A stretch of 34,489 nt of DNA, taken from the NCBI GenBank assembly GCA_012034615.1, contig JAAUPA010000020.1, forward strand, positions 1-34,489, read 5' to 3'. This DNA is from Leptolyngbyaceae cyanobacterium CSU_1_4 (lineage in GTDB: Bacteria > Cyanobacteriota > Cyanobacteriia > Elainellales > Elainellaceae). Positions 649 through 26,750 of this stretch are shown here, one piece after another. How positions within the stretch are numbered: the first letter of the stretch is position 1; every line of letters begins with the position of its first letter. The notes beneath the pieces are model-generated. The model did no database searches, was not told where the DNA came from, and saw nothing but the letters and a program-made list of their open reading frames with translations. The translations under genes and the position numbers were made by a program.

Positions 649-1801
649 TTAAGACTGGGACAACACCACAGTTTTGGCGATCGCATCTTCTAAGCTATCG
701 GTCATAGGAATTTTGCTTTTTGCCAATAGTTCAGCAGCTTGTTCCAGCCGATCGCCCACCAGCCTCACCACAATGGGCGGCGTATTTTTGCGATTTCGTA
801 AATAAAAGGTCATCCCCTCCGCCACCTGACGGCAAGAAATCACGCTGCCCAAAACATTCACCAGCACAGCCTTGACCGTTTTATCAGCAAGGATGAGATC
901 TAAGCCTTGCTGCAATCGTTCTTGCAACGTCTCAGGCGGGCAATTATGGCGATACTCACCGCCAATATCAACAAAGCTAGCAGTTTTACCCTTGGCGCTC
1001 TGAATTAGATCTAACGTTGCCATCATCAGACCCGCCCCATTGCACAAAACGCCAATACTCCCTTCGAGTTGAACCCGCTTCAGATCGGAGGTTAACTTGG
1101 CTTTTTCGTTTCCAGCTACGCTAGACGGGGCAGTATCAGGAAGCGTAGCAATGAATGCTGCAATGTTCGATCGCCGACCCAAGGCCGCATCCTCTGCCAC
1201 AACCCGCCCATCCAACGCCATCAGCTCACCCGTTGTACTAACCGCCAAGGGATTAATCTCAATGAGATCTAAGTCTTGCTGAATAAACAGGTTATACATC
1301 TTTTCCAACACCGAACTCACCGATTGAATCAACTCGCCCTCCAGTCCCATTTTCAACGCCAAGCGCCGAGCATAAAAACGACGAGAACTCTTGATCCACC
1401 ACGACCTGCTGCATATGCTCTAGCTTCGATTCCACATCCACTCCCCCCTGCCGAGACCCCAGCATCAGAGGACGACGAGTTGAGCTATCTAACAGAATTG
1501 CCAAATAAAACTCGCGATCGGGGTTGTACTTCGCTTCTGCCAGGAGTACTTCAGGATAGCACCCCATAATTGGCAGGTGAAAAATGGCTTGAGCCGCCGC
1601 CACCGCATCGATCGTATTTTCGACAAATTTTATACCGCCTGCCTTACCCCGCCCCCCTGTGCGCACCTGCGACTTCAGTACAACCGGGTATGAAATTTTC
1701 AATCCCTTCAAATCTCGGGGATGGGCAATGCGCTGGGAGGGCAACACTGGAATGCCCATTTGGCGGAATAATTCCTTTGCTTGATACTCTAGCAAGTCCA
1801 T
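649..1801 (-). CDS. sucC: Succinyl-CoA synthetase beta subunit, one frameshift
   Basis: The beta subunit supplies the ATP-grasp nucleotide site of the SucCD complex. The N-terminus MDLLEYQAKELFRQMGIPVL is classic for the family, followed by SQVRTGGRGKAGGIKF (grasp fold), LIEINPLAVSTTGELMALD, and the C-terminal ligase domain with GSIGVLCNGAGLMMATLD and FVDIGGEYRHNCP. The reading frame is lost after VVVDQEFSSF; the neighbouring frame continues YARRLALKMGLEGE. One extra base in the A5 run at 1374-1378 explains this. The repaired protein is 383 aa, near the usual length. Translation starts at the ATG at 1801. It is divergent from ald across a 365-base spacer and upstream of sucD. Presence of sucCD implies a succinyl-CoA route in the TCA cycle, which not all cyanobacteria are described as using. 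Confidence 0.92.
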
Positions 1802-4994: not shown

Positions 4995-5887
4995 ATGAAA
5001 AAACTTTTAATCACTGGCGCTAGTGGATTTCTAGGCTGGCACCTTTGTCGGCTGGCTCAAGCAACCTGGCAGGTTTATGGCGATCTTGCCATTATCAGGC
5101 AGAGGCTCCGAAAGATCTGCAAGAAGCCGCCCGTCCTCCAGTCGTCTCCATTCCGCTCGAACTCACCGACCTGGCAGCACTCACAACCCAATTTCAAATC
5201 CTCAAGCCCGATGCTGTCATTCACACCGCAGCCATCTCCAGCCCTAACGCTTGTCAAGAAAATCCGATCCAATCCTACGCCATTAACGTCCAGACCTCAT
5301 GGCACCTCGCAGAACTCAGCGCTGCTGCCCAAGTTCCTTATCTTTTCACATCTTCAGAGCAAGTTTTCAATGGCTTAAACCCGCCTTACTGTGAAACCGA
5401 TCCGGTCTGCCCCATCAACCACTACGGCGAGCAAAAAGTCGCTGCTGAGGTCGGCATTTTAGAACGCCACACCACTGCGACTGTCTGTCGAATGCCGCTG
5501 ATGTATGGAGTTGCTCCCCGTCCTAGTTTCATTCAGCCTTTTATGGAAGCCCTCCAGTCAGGGCAGGCGCTCAATTTATTCACTGACGAAATTCGCAACC
5601 CGGTTAGCGGTACAGCCGCTGCGCAAGGCATTTTAATGGCGCTAGAAAAGCAGGTGACAGGCTATTTGCACTTAGGGGGCAAGGAACGACTTTCGCGCTA
5701 TGAAATGGGGCTGCTGTTGGGAAATATTTTGCAGATTGAAAACCCCAAACTGAATGCTTGTCGCCAAGCGGATGTGAAAATGTCTGCGCCTCGACCTCCA
5801 GATGCTTCGTTGGATAGTTCGATCGCGTTTAGCCTGGGGTATGCGCCGCGATCGATGCGGGAAGAATTGAGGGAACTGCTAAATTGA
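4995..5887 (+). CDS. RmlD-like NAD(P)-dependent sugar-nucleotide reductase, one frameshift
   Basis: This is an extended short-chain dehydrogenase of the RmlD (dTDP-4-dehydrorhamnose reductase)/MAT2B type. The N-terminus MKKLLITGASGFLGWHLCRL has the GxxGxxG cofactor motif; later come HTAAISSP, the SSEQVFNG stretch and the catalytic pair in HYGEQKVAAE (Tyr144, Lys148 after repair). The frame breaks after WQVYGDLA and resumes as HYQAEAPKDLQEA; one missing C at 5089-5090 explains it. The repaired protein is 297 aa, normal for the family. The substrate is not evident, and no other rhamnose genes are nearby. The N-terminal fragment carries the cofactor loop and the downstream one carries the active site, so neither alone would be functional. 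Confidence 0.88.
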
Positions 5888-5896
5888 GGGAGCCAT

Positions 5897-6373
5897 TTAG
5901 TTATTCTCTGCCTGCTTCTGGTTCAGTTCTTTGCACTTTGCCTCTGCCACCTTGAAAGCCGCCTGATATTCTTTGCCACCCAACATTAGGTTACCGTAGT
6001 ACTCGTAGGGCGATGAACCATAGGTGGGCAGGGGGTCATCTTCTGGATAGTCTTCTTTTGCCTCTTCTACGATCGCCTTCAATTTCTTAACGCTCAAACT
6101 CTGCGCTGCAAAGTAGTGTAGCCCTTCTGGCTTTTGTTTAAGGTGGGGCAAAGAAGGATCAAGAACCTCGTCTTGGCTCTCAATCCAGGCGTGTTCCACT
6201 GGCTTGTAGGGCTGTCCGGCAAAGACTAAAAAGCCCTGAACATAAAGTGATCCTTCGGTGGCTAGAGCAGCACGGTAAGCATTATCAAACGGGGTTTTTG
6301 CCTTGCTTTTTACATTTTGGGCAAGGGCAACAGAGAGGGCTTCATTGAGAGGCTTTGACGAAGGCTGTGTCAT
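5897..6373 (-). CDS. Hypothetical protein
   Basis: A 158-aa soluble product with no motif that I can name. It shows a compact middle section (GSLYVQGFLVFAGQPYKPVE, then HAWIESQDEVLDPSLPHL), a proline- and acid-rich turn (EEAKEDYPEDDPLPTYGSSP) and a charged helical C-terminus ending NQKQAENN. The 'HAWIE...VLDPS' pattern resembles small proteins that handle a modified residue or peptide, but I do not assign a function. It is convergent with the RmlD-like gene, with nine bases between the stops, which leaves no room for an independent terminator. Confidence 0.75.
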   Translation of the reverse strand: MTQPSSKPLNEALSVALAQNVKSKAKTPFDNAYRAALATEGSLYVQGFLVFAGQPYKPVEHAWIESQDEVLDPSLPHLKQKPEGLHYFAAQSLSVKKLKAIVEEAKEDYPEDDPLPTYGSSPYEYYGNLMLGGKEYQAAFKVAEAKCKELNQKQAENN

Positions 6374-6471
6374 GGGAAGCCGAGGCTAAAAATCATCCCA
6401 TCTACTATAACAACCCTCGTGCCCTTCAAAACTCTTGCCTTTGACTCTGGCTCTCTCAAAGATAAACAAAG

Positions 6472-19402: not shown

Positions 19403-19963
19403 ATGACTGCTCAAATTTTGGTTGAAAAGAAGAAGTTGGGTAAACCGCCCTTAGGGCTGCATTATTTGGGCGATCGAGTCCTTCGCCAGCCCGCCAAACG
19501 AATTGCTAAGGTGGATGACGACATTCGCAAATTGGCAAGGCAAATGCTCCAGACGATGTACAGTGAGGAGGGCATTGGTTTGGCGGCTCCTCAAGTCGGG
19601 GTTCATAAACAGATCTTGGTGGTGGATTGTGACACTGAGAATGCAGCAACGCCGCCGTTGGTGTTGATTAATCCGGTGATTCTGAGTTCTAGTCAAGAGG
19701 TGTCTGTTGTTCAGGAAGGTTGCCTTAGCATTCCTCAAGTGTTTTTAGATGTGACCCGCCCCGAAATGATCGAAGTGTCGTATAAAGACGAGCAGGGCAA
19801 ACCCCGAAAGTTAGTGGCAAAGGATCTGCTAGCACGGGTGATTCAGCACGAGATCGATCATTTAAATGGCGTTTTATTTGTTGATCGAGTGGACAATGTT
19901 TTGGCGATGAACCAAGAGCTAGTCAAGCAAGGGTTCGCCATAGATGCCGTTAAGCCTGTTTAG
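19403..19963 (+). CDS. def: Peptide deformylase
   Basis: The metalloenzyme removes the formyl group from the N-terminal Met of nascent proteins at the ribosome. The 186-aa product has all three signature motifs: GIGLAAPQVG, EGCLSIP (metal Cys) and QHEIDHLNG (two metal His and catalytic Glu). Length and sequence are normal for the type-1 bacterial enzyme. A small membrane-protein gene follows 17 bases later and is probably co-transcribed. Confidence 0.97.
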   Translation: MTAQILVEKKKLGKPPLGLHYLGDRVLRQPAKRIAKVDDDIRKLARQMLQTMYSEEGIGLAAPQVGVHKQILVVDCDTENAATPPLVLINPVILSSSQEVSVVQEGCLSIPQVFLDVTRPEMIEVSYKDEQGKPRKLVAKDLLARVIQHEIDHLNGVLFVDRVDNVLAMNQELVKQGFAIDAVKPV

Positions 19964-20207: not shown

Positions 20208-21566
20208 ATGACCGGATTACCTCCCCTGCCCGCAGTGCTCCGGCAAGTCTCTCGGGACGGCGATGTGGCTGCCTCGTATTCACTGGTCGCGCCTGAAGGA
20301 ATGGTGATGGGGCGCGATCCTCAATGCCAAATCCTCCTGGATTCGGAAAGCTATGGGGGGCGTGTCTCGAAAGCACGCTGAGGTGCGCCCGTCCTCGACC
20401 TCAGCCACCGGCTGGCAGGTCTGTGATCTGAGTAGTGCCAATGGAACGTATGTTAATGGGCATCCGTTGAGCGGGTGCCGGGGTTTAGAAGTGGGCGATC
20501 GCATCTCGTTGGCGCAAGCCGGTCCCCATTTTATTTTTGGGCTTCAATCTAGTCCTGAGTGGGTTGAGCTGCCGACTAATCCCTCGTGGGTTGCTCAAAA
20601 TAGGGGGTTCAGAATCTTTCTGCACTTCCCGTTCATCCTGCCGGGGTTACAGATGTCACCTTTAGTCAGTTATTCCCCATCCTTTCGACGGGAAGAGACT
20701 TAACTCAAAAGGCGTATTTATTGCCCGGGATCGTGACGATCGCCTTTGTGGTTTTGATGTTTACTGCCATTGGTCAGTCAGATTTGTTCAATCTGCTATT
20801 GGCAGCCTACATTGCTGGAATTGCTTACTTTTTTGTCTATCAGCTCTGTGGCAAACGCAAGCCTTGGTGGGTATTGGCGGGGTCTGCGATCGTGACGGTG
20901 CTGGTGCTCATCAGCCCCCTTCTAGATTTATTTGTGCTAATATTCCGAGACTTTCTACCTGGAAAGGTTCCTCAAAGCACGGCATCCGAGAACTTTTTGT
21001 GGGTTTTAGTGCGAATGTTCTTTGGAGCAGGCTTAATGGAGGAACTATTAAAGGCGATCCCTATTTTGCTGGCGTACAGCGTGGGTGCAACGTTGCGATC
21101 GCCTTGGCGTGAAAAGATTGGGGTTTGGGAGCCGCTGGATGGCATTTTGCTGGGCACTGCCTCAGCCGTAGGCTTCACGCTCCTCGAAACCTTAGGACAA
21201 TATGTACCCTCAGCAGCCCAAGACTTAACGCTTCAAGGGCAAGGAGCAGTGGTGGGGCTACAGCTATTAATTGCCAGAATTCTTGGTTCCATCTCTGGGC
21301 ACATGGCATATAGCGGTTATCTGGGCTATTTTATTGGCCTCAGTGTTCTTAAGCCCTCAAAACGATGGCAGATCCTGGGGGTGGGGTATGTGACAGCGGC
21401 AGGGCTACATGCGTTGTGGAATGCAACAGGAGCCTTGAACTTACTGGTGCTAGCGCTGGTGGGAGTAGCTTCTTACGCATTTTTAGCGGCGGCAATTTTG
21501 AAAGCGAGGGCTTTATCTCCTAACCGATCGCAAAATTTTGCGACTCGTTTCACAAATTTACCCTGA
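20208..21566 (+). CDS. FHA domain fused to PrsW-family intramembrane protease, two frameshifts
   Basis: Repaired, this is one 452-aa protein. An N-terminal FHA domain (about 10-115) has GRDPQC, GVSRKHAEV and SSANGTYVNG, the residues that bind phosphothreonine. A linker (GVTDVTFSQLFPILSTGRDL) leads into a polytopic membrane domain from about 172 with PrsW features: EExxK in LMEELLKAIPIL (Glu278, Glu279, Lys282), FxxxE in VGFTLLETLG (Phe323, Glu327), His365 and His401 in LHALWNATG. In Bacillus, PrsW cleaves an anti-sigma factor in the membrane. Two breaks occur: one extra G in the run at 20355-20360 and one missing G in the run at 20603-20607. With both repaired the frame runs from the ATG at 20208 to 21566. 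Coupling FHA to PrsW suggests phosphorylation-dependent substrate recruitment, which is an inference. Confidence 0.87.
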
Positions 21567-21598
21567 CTCTGTAATTCCAGGCTGTTGGATTTCAGACT

Positions 21599-22198
21599 CT
21601 AGGATTCCAGAGCATCGGAGCTTTGAGAGAGCGTATATCGTGCGACTGCCAAGCTTAATCGAGCTTGTTCAATGCTGGATAAGTCATCCCAATTGGCACA
21701 GCGAACTGATTTCAAAACTGACTCTAGGCTCTCATCCGAACCCCGCATAGCATAGGCAAAAGGACGGGCAAGGACTTGCAAATCATCAGTATCCCAAGTC
21801 GGTAAGATATCTTGAACGCACTGAACCAATTGATCTGCCAAAGACAGATTAGCAGAGGCAACTTGCTGTGCCTTGCGAAGAATGCCCTCTAGGAAATGGG
21901 GGGGAACTTGCAGGGCAAGGCGTTGGAACAAATCGGCAGCCAAACCGTTGACAGCCGGAACCGTTGCCCAAACCTGCTCTAAATGAGTCGCAAAAATTTG
22001 TCCTTGCTCGGTCAACTCTTCGGTCGTCCAACCCGCGTTTAAAACTTCCTGCTCTAGGTCGGCAAAATAGGAGGGTGCGGTAAGACTGGCGGGATCCCAA
22101 AGGTAAGACGGTTGCTCTTGCAAAATTTGTCTGAGAAGTTCCATCTCGGCTTGAGCTTGGAAGGCTGAAATGCTAGGTCGTTGAGGATCTTGGGTCAT
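21599..22198 (-). CDS. Hypothetical protein downstream of the CHAT-FHA gene
   Basis: A 199-aa soluble product, probably all alpha-helical, with no family that I can name. It begins MTQDPQRPSISAFQAQAEME and has helices such as LADLFQRLALQVPPHFLEGI, ASANLSLADQLVQCVQDILP and a C-terminal EQARLSLAVARYTLSQSSDA. I prefer the ATG at 22198; an open frame extends to 22273 but the added residues look non-coding. It is downstream of and on the same strand as the CHAT-FHA and PP2C genes, with 93 bases before it, so it may be a fourth component of that locus. Confidence 0.72.
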   Translation of the reverse strand: MTQDPQRPSISAFQAQAEMELLRQILQEQPSYLWDPASLTAPSYFADLEQEVLNAGWTTEELTEQGQIFATHLEQVWATVPAVNGLAADLFQRLALQVPPHFLEGILRKAQQVASANLSLADQLVQCVQDILPTWDTDDLQVLARPFAYAMRGSDESLESVLKSVRCANWDDLSSIEQARLSLAVARYTLSQSSDALES

Positions 22199-22291
22199 CA
22201 ATTTACTCCCGAATGTTTTGACGGTGGCGATTGGATATGCATGACTACATCTACCTTCAAGCCAGTTCCGCAATTGTCTGTAGCTTTTTGC

Positions 22292-23891
22292 TCATTCGAC
22301 GACAAACTCTAAGGCTTGACTGCGAGGATTGCCAAAGCGGAGTTGGGTTTGAGAGCGCAGAGGCACTTCTTGCTGATGAACTTTGTGCCAGCCCTCGTCG
22401 CTCGAAATCCAGGTGCCGTACCGAGAGCGATCGCGCAGTAAATAACTAGGCTCTAGGTCATCCATTCGCGAAGAATCTCGATAGAAAATCTCAGCATGAT
22501 CCCGAGAAACGCCGGGATGCTGCAACACCAAATCATTGCCCTCTCGACTGCCAACTCGCATAATGCCGCCCCGAACTGACCAAACCTCAGGTGGACTTTC
22601 TAGCGATCGCAGGTAAGCCGAAGGAGTGCGCTGTTCTCCCATCCAAGTGGCAGAGTACTCAGGAATTTCAGTCACATTGCCAGCAAAAGGACGAAGGAGC
22701 TCACCATTAAACTGAGGGTGCATGTAAAGGACAGGCAACGTCCAGGCAGGTTGATTAAATTTATACAGCGTTAAAAGATGCTGACGGGCAATGGCAACGG
22801 CTTCATCAACGGGCGATCGCTCTGCTAAGGCTTGGGTAAACACTTGGATGAAACTGAGCGCTTCCTGATCGGCGATCGAATCTCGCATCCCCAGCACCGC
22901 CGGCACGCCATGGTGAATCAGCACCTCTGCCAGGCTGCTCCGAGGCACGGCTTGATGAGCCTGCTGATAGGGCTGTGCGCCCCAGCACGCATTAAAAACA
23001 GCCAGCTTAACCTGGCATCGCACTAAGACTTGCGCCAGTTCTGTGCCATTCATGGCTTCTCCAGGGCGCAAAAACAGAAGCCCCCCGTCGGGTGCAGAAA
23101 CCCCATGTCCGGCATAGAACAAAACGTTGTAGTCTCCAACTTCTAGGGCTTGAACCAGTTCGCCCGGAGTCGGTTGAATCAGCGCTGTGACTTGGCAAGA
23201 GGCGGGATTGATGGCGCGGCGCGGCGACGCTTCGGCAACGCTCTCTAAAATTTTTGCCAGGGAAGCTGCTTCTTGATCAAGATTGAGTTGTGCCAACCCC
23301 CCCAGTTGCCGATTCTTGCCCCAGCACCAACAAGATCTTGACGAAATATTCGGAGCGGAGCGGCGGCAACGGGTCAACATCGGTGGTGGTGCGGCTAAAC
23401 AAAAGCTGCTGGCTGAGGGAAATGGCTTGCTTCCCAGCTTGGGACTGCATAATTTCCCACGGAACTGCAATTAATTCTGGATCACGAATTTCCATTCGCA
23501 CCCGCAACGGACGACCTTGACCAATGGCAATGCCTTGGCTCTGATTAAAGCTGCCTTGAATGCTGCCATCCAGCAGCCATTGCCAGAGGCTCATGCCTAA
23601 ATGTTGCATTAAGCGCCCGGTGTAGCTAGTGGGCTGTCCTTCTGCCTTAGCGTCAGGAATGAGGGGGGGTAAGGTGACCGGAAACCGAGGCACTTCGGGC
23701 AAGTCTCGGAGTGAAAATAGTCCTTGCCAGGACTGCCACGTTTCAGTCAGTGCGGGCGACCAGAGGCGGTCATGGTGAACATATCCCCCTGGATAGGGAG
23801 ACTGCAAAACCCAGACGGCGTAGTGCTGCGGTTCGACCGCTGTTAACCGAGCGATCGCCAAACTAAGACAAGGAATATCCAACGAAGCCAT
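22292..23891 (-). CDS. CHAT-domain (caspase-like) protein with C-terminal FHA domain, one frameshift
   Basis: The repaired protein is 532 aa. A CHAT (caspase HetF-associated with TPRs) protease-like region spans about 125-400: MEIRDPELIAVPWEIMQSQ, the catalytic histidine in VLFYAGHGVSAPDGGLLFL (His262) and cysteine in VKLAVFNACWGAQPY (Cys302), then VPAVLGMRDSIADQEALSFI. A C-terminal FHA domain (about 440-530) shows MRVGSREGNDLVL, PGVSRDHAEIF and RSRYGTWI. The frame is lost in the seven-C run at 23297-23303, where one extra base is present; removing it joins LVLGQESATGG to LAQLNLDQEAASL. The start is the ATG at 23891 (MASLDIPCLSLAIARL). It lies downstream of the PP2C gene. Whether it is an active protease is unknown, but the dyad is intact. 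Confidence 0.88.
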
Positions 23892-24015
23892 GAAGCGCGT
23901 ACTAATCCCTCTAAGTAAGTAATTCAAAATAACTAAGATGCCATCCCTAATGTATCAGTCCCTTTCCAACTCGGCTCTCTCCAGGAGCGTTCCTCCCAAA
24001 ACCTCTTATGGAGAA

Positions 24016-26280
24016 TTATGGAGAAGCTGGGGGAGAAGGTGTTTTTCTGCAAGCGCCCTGTTGCACAACAGTAGCTTGAGCAATGGGCGCAACCCAGGCA
24101 CTAATGGCGGGCTCCCGAATCCAGCCCTCCTGACCGGGCACCAATGAAGGGTCAAGTTCTGTAATGGGGATAGAACACACCCTAAATTGCACCCACTGCC
24201 CTTGCTGAGCTGTGCCTCGCTTGCTGATAACCTCCAAGACAGCAGCATCAGGAATAGTGCCGATCGCCCTGGGAGAGTTGGAAGCGGTTGGAGAAAGCAG
24301 AGCACCAGGAATTGGATTAGAGGCAGGAGTCAGAGGCTCGGAGAGCAAGACCAGAGGGGGGAGAAGGGCGGGGTTTCTGGGGTTTAATTGCACCCATGAG
24401 CCGATTCTTAAAGGCGTAACCCTTGGACTGGCGGAGGCAGTGGGGCTGCGCGGAGGAGTGGCAGAAGGAGAGGCTTCAGGGACGATCGCCTGTTTGGTGC
24501 CCGACCACCAGAAAAGAAACCCCAATAATCCTGCAATGCCTAACAGCGCCCCAATGCCCAGCAGCAGCAGCCTAGGAGTTTTGGGTTGAGCAGAAAGAAT
24601 TTGGGTGGTAATTCCAGATAGAACAGGTTCTGCTGCGGCTGGCTGGCTGACCTGCGCCCCAACTGGGGCAGTTGGGCTGGGATAAGGGATTTCTGACCAT
24701 TGTTCTGAAAGGGCAGGAGATGAAGCGGGTGAAGGCGTAACTTGAACATAGATCAAGCCCACCGTGACGTTATCGTGACCATTTTGAGTATTGCCAATCT
24801 CGACAAGGCGCTTACTGACGGTTTCAACATCAGTCTTTCCTTCGAGCAAAGGCAGAATTTCAGTTTCCCAATATTCCTCCACGCGATCGCCATCGCTCAA
24901 GCCATCAGAACAGAGCAAGAACACACTGTCTTCATCCAACATCAATCGCTGCACATTAGGATAAAGCAGACTAGACGCGCTCATTCCTAAAGCTTGCACC
25001 AAAGACCCAGACCCAGGTTGCTGAAGGGCTTGTGGATAGGTGCAATACCCTAACCGCACTTCCCGCGAGGCAACGTCATCATCTAAAGTAACTTGATGAC
25101 AGCCGTAGCGAGTAATCCAGTAGGCGCGACTGTCGCCCACATGGGTAATGTAAAGCTCGTGGGCACGAATCAGCCCCATCACTAGAGTTGTGCCCATGCG
25201 CTGACGATCTAGGCGCTGCTCGCTGTCATTCCGACGGCTGATCTGATCGTTGGCAAGGCAAGCGGCTTTTTCTAGCTCCACCATCAAAGTGGCAGCATTG
25301 GAGCTTTTGAGATCCAGGGGATGCAATTTGATGCTGAATTGCTTCGATCGCCAAGTTCGATGCCACGTCTCCCCCCTGATGCCCCCCAATGCCATCACAA
25401 ACCACCACTAGGGGGTCTTCAGCCGAGAGCAAAGTCTGAACAGTGCCGCTGGGCGGATAACACGCATCTTCATTGCGCTGGCGCGTCGGACCTTGGTCGG
25501 TACGGGTAGCAGTTTGTACATGTCGAGCCTGAGCTTGCCCCACCCGGGCGATCGCCTTGTCAAGATAATCGATCAACAATTCAATGTTATAAATTTCGCC
25601 TTGAACCAACTGCGGACAAATTTGTTGTAAGAAAGACGCAACTCCAGGCTGGCGATCGCCCCCCAAGACTGCCAAAGCTGCCCCAGTTGTGCCAGAGAAG
25701 GCTCATCCCCGCGATCGAGCCGCAACTCTAGCAGCCGAAACAACGAGCCTTCTACTTTAAATAACTCAGGCTTCAGCAAACTCGACCCCACCTGCTCACT
25801 GTGCAACGGCTGCCACAAGTTCGCCATCTGCCACAGCCAATTGAATTGACGCAGGGCAGTTGCTTTTCCCCATTCATCTGTTAGGGCAGGCAAAAGCCGG
25901 ACATTGGGAGCCTGCCCCTCCAATCTTTCTACCCAAAGAGCAGCCTGTTCTAGCAGGAGCAGAGGACTGGCAGCCTGTCTTTCCAGCCAGTCATACACCT
26001 GAGGCACATGAAGTTGCCAAGGGGAAAGGCGGAGGTAAGGCACAACTTGAGCGGGAACCTCGGCAGAATTGTTGGGAAGCAGCCCTGGTTTCGTATCGAG
26101 AAAAATGTTTTTAGATTTGCAGAGATATCGCCCCGCCAGCACTTCATCAGGGTCATAGCGACCTTCACCCATTGCCCACAAATATCGCCTTATTAAAGGC
26201 ATACGACAGTTCTGACAGAACTGATTACCTTCAAAATTAGACGTTTGACAAGCAGGGTTATGGCAGTCAAGCATTGCCAT
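24016..26280 (-). CDS. Zinc-ribbon PP2C-type phosphatase with a transmembrane segment, two frameshifts
   Basis: Repaired, one 754-aa protein. The N-terminus MAMLDCHNPACQTSNFEGNQ, then FCQNC, is a four-cysteine zinc ribbon like those on cyanobacterial Ser/Thr kinases. A variable region (40-255) precedes a PP2C phosphatase (about 255-515): TDQGPTRQRNEDA, VVVCDGIGGHQGGD, MGTTLVMGL, YITHVGDSRAYWI, FLLCSDGLSDG and GHDNVTVGLI, with metal-binding acidic residues intact. A membrane helix at about 570-593 (LLLLGIGALLGIAGLLGFLF) is followed by a Pro/Ser-rich exported tail with an SH3-like stretch (IGSWVQLNPRNPALLPP). Two breaks occur: one C missing from the run 25659-25664 and one extra G in the run 25317-25320. 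The catalytic domain should face the cytosol, opposing Ser/Thr kinases. It is first in a likely operon with CHAT-FHA. Confidence 0.87.
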
Positions 26281-26329: not shown

Positions 26330-26392
26330 ATTTTAGATTTTGAATTTTACATTTTAGATTTTGAATTTTTTAGAGATCAATTTAGAGATCAA
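26330..26392. repeat. AT-rich short tandem repeats between PP2C and ndhM
   Basis: Two copies of attttagattttgaatttt (26330-26348 and 26351-26369, period 21) abut two copies of tttagagatcaa (26369-26380 and 26381-26392). The second unit crosses the stop codon of ndhM. This sits downstream of ndhM and upstream of the PP2C gene on the same strand. No stem-loop is obvious; it may be a slippage-prone spacer or regulatory sequence. Confidence 0.8.
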
Positions 26393-26750
26393 GGTGATGG
26401 GCGGCACCGTTATCATCGGCAGCGCGGGATAAGCCCAGGCTATAGTTTTTGACGCGGCTGTTGAGGTTGTAGGAAATGCTGCCAGATTGGAGGAGCGATC
26501 GCACAAAGTGCTCTAAATCTGACCCAATTCGACGCAAGTTGTAATCGGTCAACTCTGCTGATTCAGAAGCATCTACCAGTTCGTCAAACTTACGATAGAC
26601 CTGCTGAAGGGCGCTGTCATTCCAAAGCAACTCGTTGTCAGGATCAATATCTAGGGTCAGGGTGTCGGTACTGGGCACCAGTTCATTATTGGTGTTCTGA
26701 ATATTAGCCGCAAAAATGCGAACATGACGGGTTGTAGACTTGAGCAGCAT
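26382..26750 (-). CDS. ndhM: NAD(P)H-quinone oxidoreductase subunit M
   Basis: NdhM is a peripheral subunit of the cyanobacterial/plastid NDH-1 complex, which serves respiration and cyclic electron flow around photosystem I at the thylakoid. The 122-aa product matches closely: MLLKSTTRHVRIFAANIQN, VPSTDTLTLDIDPDNELLWN, LQQVYRKFDELVDASESAEL, TDYNLRRIGSDLEHFVRSLL and SGSISYNLNSRVKNYSLGLP-like ending. Length is normal. This is the best single marker that the window is cyanobacterial. It is upstream of the PP2C gene on the same strand, and divergent from the DUF4230 gene. Confidence 0.96.
   Translation of the reverse strand: MLLKSTTRHVRIFAANIQNTNNELVPSTDTLTLDIDPDNELLWNDSALQQVYRKFDELVDASESAELTDYNLRRIGSDLEHFVRSLLQSGSISYNLNSRVKNYSLGLSRAADDNGAAHHLDL

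Follow-up and report, generated by a model that had tools for sequence, protein, structure and literature searches.

A CHAT-FHA protease gene and its obligate partner in cyanobacteria: a candidate second HetF/PatU-like pair

Which genes of this cyanobacterial locus belong together, and what might they do together? In the window, by which we mean the whole analysed stretch of 34,489 nt, a gene for an FHA-PrsW fusion converges with three genes of the opposite strand. These encode a protein of ~199 aa (U199), a CHAT-FHA protein and a 4-Cys PP2C phosphatase. The initial annotation of this DNA proposed a single phosphorylation-gated proteolysis locus built from the two FHA proteins and the phosphatase; U199 had no place in that model. 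We read the locus mainly as a second HetF/PatU-like pair, CHAT-FHA and U199, with accessory neighbours, and not as a double-protease FHA locus.

Gene content and sequence breaks of the window

A summary of the features is given in Table 1.

Table 1. Features of the locus. Positions refer to the window.
Feature	Position	Strand	Remarks
Peptide deformylase gene (def)	19403..19963	+	conserved flank outside Nostocales; named from sequence and conserved position
FHA-PrsW gene	20208..21566	+	PF00498 + PF13367; separable neighbour, not an obligate member
U199 gene (~199 aa, PatU-like, all-helical)	21599..22198	-	intact ORF; start MTQDP
U199 Arg152 codon	21743..21745	-	P1-like and invariant; followed by Gly (AYAMR-G), R152-G153 being a candidate scissile bond
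CHAT-FHA gene (HetF paralogue by sequence)	22292..23891	-	PF12770 + PF00498; NF045509 (HetF) below cut-off; HetF alignment
FHA domain of CHAT-FHA	22331..22558	-	PF00498, 51.1 bits
Catalytic Cys codon of CHAT-FHA (FNACWG)	22985..22987	-	59/59 orthologues; aligned with HetF FNSC
Catalytic His codon of CHAT-FHA (YAGHG)	23105..23107	-	59/59 orthologues
4-Cys PP2C phosphatase gene, PRK14559-like	24016..26280	-	PF13672/PF00481, NF011149
ndhM	26382..26750	-	conserved flank; PF10664, E 4e-50

Domains, order, strands and coordinates of the four genes agree with the initial annotation, including the convergent orientation of FHA-PrsW. Pfam places FHA (20353-20703) and PrsW (20721-21566) on the plus strand, CHAT and FHA within 22292-23470 and the PP2C domain at 24016-25398 on the minus strand, all above cut-off. 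The PP2C protein moreover carries a hydrophobic segment, probably transmembrane, and its N-terminus scores just short of the cut-off in its match to the 4-Cys prefix domain. The open frame of U199 extends to 22273.

All four genes are real, but FHA-PrsW, CHAT-FHA and PP2C each lack a continuous reading frame here, which the initial annotation had overlooked. In the window each of the three is split by single-base indels, mostly within or close to G/C runs. According to alignments the breaks lie at a G6 run (20355-20360) and at about 20601-20612 in FHA-PrsW, at a C7 run (23297-23303) in CHAT-FHA, and at about 25319 and 25651 in PP2C. A genome of the same genus (G033, locus L119) encodes all three intact, with 452, 532 and 754 aa, respectively. 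The same kind of indel splits ftsX (16378) in the window, and a succinyl-CoA-synthetase-like and an epimerase-like gene are apparently split too. Since housekeeping genes are frameshifted as well, the breaks are most plausibly sequencing or assembly errors, and true pseudogenes were rejected on the same ground. A defence system was also considered and rejected because each gene has a single copy and is conserved within the order; PADLOC returned one weak match only, of the N-terminal piece of PP2C to a CARF-HEPN model (E 4e-4).

Neighbourhood conservation and co-occurrence

The neighbourhood was compared in 85 loci, 80 of them fetched from named genomes by PrsW alone and five from the order of the window. 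FHA-PrsW is accompanied by U199 in 63 loci, CHAT-FHA in 61, PP2C in 53 and ndhM in 51, and by the remoter neighbours NAT, ftsX and DUF4230 in three, eight and 13, all of these counts being lower bounds as contig ends cut some loci. In the common layout U199 adjoins FHA-PrsW and is followed by CHAT-FHA, PP2C and ndhM, with order and orientation kept. It is found in Nostoc-like, Oscillatoria-like and Oculatella-like genomes and spans cyanobacterial orders. The gene grouping is more than chance; the initial annotation had named rare adjacency in other genomes as the sign of a chance grouping, and the genes proved to be neighbours frequently.

Presence and absence give a sharper picture of which genes belong together. 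Among 136 genomes sampled evenly across the class, 63 have both CHAT-FHA and U199, none has CHAT-FHA only, one has U199 only and 72 have neither. In the sole exception (G040) CHAT-FHA is gone from between PP2C and U199, leaving a gap of about 0.7 kb. In 47 further genomes, whose CHAT-FHA status was known when they were selected, 37 have both genes and nine neither, the remaining one (G008) showing a U199 fragment at a contig end. Within families, too, the two genes are present or absent together: in family f5 both are found in g48 and g50 and missing from g25, and in family f14 genome G230 lacks CHAT-FHA as well as U199. The two genes are distant or on separate contigs in 12 of the 63 genomes, part of which may be assembly breaks (e.g. 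G004); in the single-contig genome G145 both are present 1.1 Mb apart. CHAT-FHA and U199 are an obligate pair, a partnership that the initial annotation had passed over.

The other candidates are less tightly bound to CHAT-FHA. In the same 136 genomes PatU, whose spread is similar, and CHAT-FHA occur together in 59, CHAT-FHA alone in four, PatU alone in nine and neither in 64. For FHA-PrsW the corresponding numbers are 50 (both), 13 (CHAT-FHA only), 35 (FHA-PrsW only) and 38 (neither), and the two genes adjoin each other in just 28 of the 50 genomes having both. The genomes are related, and shared ancestry inflates these co-occurrence statistics such that Fisher values overstate the evidence. 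The link of U199 to CHAT-FHA is tighter than that of PatU or FHA-PrsW and hence reflects more than the gene content of large genomes. The neighbourhood is thus conserved, but a place of FHA-PrsW in its core, as in the initial model, is not supported: the gene is missing from 13 of the 63 CHAT-FHA genomes and present in 35 of the 73 without CHAT-FHA. FHA-PrsW is separable from the CHAT-FHA/U199 pair. PP2C of this type is spread more widely than the pair, its best match lying no more than 5 kb from CHAT-FHA in 46 of 61 genomes. Distance correlation between the gene families was high for all of them and did not discriminate.

Relationship of the pair to HetF and PatU

Judged by its sequence, CHAT-FHA is a paralogue of HetF, a CHAT protease that acts in heterocyst differentiation and in cell division. 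It aligns with HetF across the N-terminal and CHAT parts with the invariant His-Cys dyad in register, and it occurs in the same genomes. The HetF model NF045509 matches CHAT-FHA at positions 72-388 of 836 (E 8e-51) with 173 bits, below the cut-off of 1200, under which the full-length HetF of the same genus likewise remains (817 bits). The Pfam CHAT domain (PF12770) scores 75 bits, above its cut-off. A longer relative of CHAT-FHA is present in nearly all CHAT-FHA genomes of the order, and the two that were scanned are HetF-like. The proteins differ in their C-terminal part: CHAT-FHA has its FHA domain where HetF runs on for ~400 residues, the C-terminal region of HetF being absent, and it comprises 524-559 aa as opposed to 819-982 aa. 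The predicted model of CHAT-FHA is weak (pLDDT 68, pTM 0.44), and we take from it no more than a broad resemblance to SAVED-CHAT and FHA folds.

U199 has no fitting family in Pfam, NCBIfam or PDB by sequence search (no reliable Pfam match), and a fold search against PDB gave no match with E < 1. Its AlphaFold2 model is moderate (pLDDT 79, pTM 0.57). A profile search in 13 genomes recovered true U199 in ten. Weaker places (E 0.002-0.12) appeared in six genomes (G058, G076, G053, G031, G064 and G230), all inside PatU, the gene directly after hetZ (HetZ assigned by NF037963), and in G230 this happens without a true U199. A seventh weak match (G033, E 0.63) lies elsewhere in the genome and was taken as noise. 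Reciprocal U199 and PatU profiles score 20.7 and 24.7 bits, compared to at most 6.7 for shuffled sequences. hhalign pairs the two families over ~100 residues (E 6e-5, probability 64%) with an invariant Arg of each aligned. Neither Pfam nor NCBIfam has a model for PatU or for U199. U199 is a distant relative of PatU, the homology being weak by sequence alone.

Both families share, apart from the homologous helical segment, a PW motif near the N-terminus and an invariant Arg plus small residue followed by a variable segment. They differ in that U199 is accompanied by CHAT-FHA, FHA-PrsW and PP2C in the mapped loci and does not lie beside hetZ. Moreover, U199 ends with the shared segment, the C-terminal part of PatU being absent, and the two have diverged far.

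A candidate cut site, its proposed control and rival explanations

PatU3 is cleaved by HetF (PMC12288457, review). Since this relative of U199 is cut by the paralogue of CHAT-FHA, we read U199 as a probable substrate of CHAT-FHA. We consider it probable, though well short of certain, that CHAT-FHA is a protease with U199 as its dedicated partner and, most likely, substrate, and that the two form a second, paralogous HetF/PatU pair. On the economical view, gene duplication would have doubled both the CHAT protease and the PatU-type partner, and the second pair would act like the first, the protease cutting its partner. We found no report of a second, FHA-equipped HetF/PatU-like pair in the open literature searched.

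The bond R152-G153 is a candidate scissile bond of U199. Arg152 is conserved in 62 of 62 orthologues and is followed by Ser (40), Gly (19) or, once each, Asn, Asp or Ala, so that Ser and Gly together account for 59 of 62. The motif reads [A/S/G/P/E]-Met-Arg, then Ser or Gly, then a variable segment. MRS is kept in two orthologues in which the upstream ARPxAY is altered, and the readable unlinked copies of U199 retain Met-Arg. In G040, where CHAT-FHA is lost, the site has become ASATR-N; Met and the small residue are changed in this one case, whereas Arg persists without the protease, a point against the cut-site reading. PatU has a solitary Arg-Ser flanked by variable stretches, the Arg being invariant (35/35) and the Ser present in 33/35. 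The AlphaFold2 model places Arg152 in a loop that separates two predicted helices (137-148 and 154-164). The His-Cys dyad of the caspase-like CHAT domain would cut after Arg152 (AYAMR-[Ser/Gly]) in this loop, leaving an N-terminal piece of ~152 and a C-terminal piece of ~47 residues. R145, P146 and M151 are invariant as well, and Arg152 could thus be structural.

In pairing a CHAT protease with a protein substrate of its own, the arrangement proposed here resembles the TPR-CHAT/Csx30 pair of Craspase, with the difference that Craspase is RNA-guided and CRISPR-linked. Craspase cleaves at non-conserved sites (PMC11106740), and hence a conserved site is not needed for cleavage by a CHAT protease.

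The FHA domain hints that Ser/Thr kinases control CHAT-FHA, and the neighbouring PP2C hints at an opposing phosphatase. FHA would position or activate CHAT-FHA on phospho-Thr proteins, and PP2C, often next door, may oppose the kinase. In FHA-PrsW the phospho-Thr-reading residues of the FHA domain, Arg, Ser and His, are kept in 83 of 83 sequences, and so are the Glu and His residues of the PrsW motifs (EE..K, F...E, H); where HxxxD has its Asp, all 83 carry Ser. In CHAT-FHA the phospho-Thr-reading residues are mostly retained, Arg in 53, Ser in 59 and His in 58 of 59 orthologues, and the usual Asn is absent. Arg is replaced by Ser in five of 59 including the genus of the window, where an adjoining Arg is found. 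The PP2C motifs are conserved. This protein resembles the PRK14559 4-Cys Ser/Thr phosphatases in its N-terminal Cys motif and PP2C domain but scores 275 bits at a family cut-off of 374 and differs in its C-terminal tail. The 4-Cys prefix is a feature of some cyanobacterial kinases. A search for proteins with the same ribbon, as advised by the initial annotation, detected the kinase-type prefix above cut-off at six further places in the genome.

Obligate co-occurrence and usual adjacency would be expected of any tight CHAT-FHA/U199 complex. U199 might hence bind CHAT-FHA as an obligate cofactor, chaperone or inhibitor without being its substrate, with MR-S/G as part of the binding surface, and the conserved block DL.VLARPxAYAMR indeed exceeds the length that a cut site requires. 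We nevertheless regard this as rather unlikely. PatU includes PatU3, which is a substrate of CHAT-FHA's own paralogue, and the conserved Arg-Ser of PatU directly follows variable residues, a pattern more in keeping with a cut site than with a surface.

The model of the initial annotation, in which kinase-marked targets recruit FHA-PrsW as well as CHAT-FHA and PP2C resets the system, draws on the adjacency of the genes in many lineages, on intact catalytic and FHA residues and on the 4-Cys-prefix proteins elsewhere in the genome. It appears improbable in view of the 35 genomes with FHA-PrsW and no CHAT-FHA, the 13 with the reverse and the limited adjacency of the two. Moreover, an account of 2012 already lists fusions of FHA with PrsW among general signalling peptidases (PMC3482391); these have the same architecture, and the locus with its conserved neighbourhood does not figure in the relevant part of that account. 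Gene order might finally be conserved without shared function, the neighbours of ndhM being held by low rearrangement, and ndhM and def, which have no obvious tie to the other genes, are often kept too. NAT, ftsX and DUF4230 are however seldom kept in the same loci, and CHAT-FHA and U199 are found together also where they are not linked. We therefore give this explanation very little weight, and it is unlikely for that pair.

To return to U199 as a substrate, its role may be that of an inhibitor relieved by cleavage, in analogy with PatU3. HetZ is bound by PatU3 (PMC7377430). PatU3 restrains both division and differentiation for as long as HetF does not limit it. HetZ paralogues exist in these genomes and are a lead to what U199 restrains. 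Possibly, and we put this forward tentatively, many larger-genome cyanobacteria run two CHAT protease-PatU circuits that are paralogous, namely HetF/PatU and a phospho-Thr-gated CHAT-FHA that cuts U199 at Arg-Ser/Gly, with the neighbouring PP2C as off switch.

HetF/PatU3 has been described as a proteolytic step that couples cell division to differentiation. The second pair occurs in heterocyst-forming and other cyanobacteria, and the unannotated U199 gains a testable role. One scissile bond is predicted per family in two protein families; if the reading is true, the invariant Arg-Ser of PatU3 would be the predicted HetF cut site. The reading would also connect an irreversible proteolytic step with Ser/Thr phospho-signalling, perhaps in the control of division or stress, and would give cyanobacterial Ser/Thr kinases and PP2C phosphatases, both little understood, a tie to regulated proteolysis.

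Assembly quality and coordinates

The ftsX frameshift, together with the apparent splits in two other genes of the window, points to indel errors in the assembly.

Features of the window and of two related loci (L119, same genus, genome G033; L124, genome G040)
Feature	Coordinates	State
succinyl-CoA-synthetase-like gene	window 649-1801	apparently split
epimerase-like gene	window 4995-5887	apparently split
ftsX	window 16378	single-base frameshift
FHA of CHAT-FHA	window 22331-22558	
FHA-PrsW	L119 7395-8753	
CHAT-FHA loss	L124 (G040:C16:50000-62000) 5733-6445	

Motif substitutions and loss of the protease

In G040, CHAT-FHA (HetF-paralogue protease) is naturally lost from between PP2C and U199 (~199 aa, PatU-like, the proposed substrate of CHAT-FHA), which is retained with TR-N in place of the candidate scissile MR-S/G site. 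In the FHA domain of CHAT-FHA, Ser replaces the pThr-contact Arg in the window's genus (5/59 orthologues), the adjacent next position being Arg. The HxxxD motif of PrsW carries Ser for Asp in all 83 FHA-PrsW orthologues.

Candidate partners and cut site

Six 4-Cys-prefix matches above cut-off in G000 (contigs 191, 267, 330, 287, 108 and 32) are candidate kinases for the phospho-signal. HetZ-family matches number three each in G053, G056 and G033, one of three adjoining PatU; the U199 target could be a HetZ paralogue. Within a variable stretch of PatU, Arg-Ser is invariant (loci L149, L151-L154, L158-L187), which makes it a candidate for the bond that HetF cuts in PatU3.
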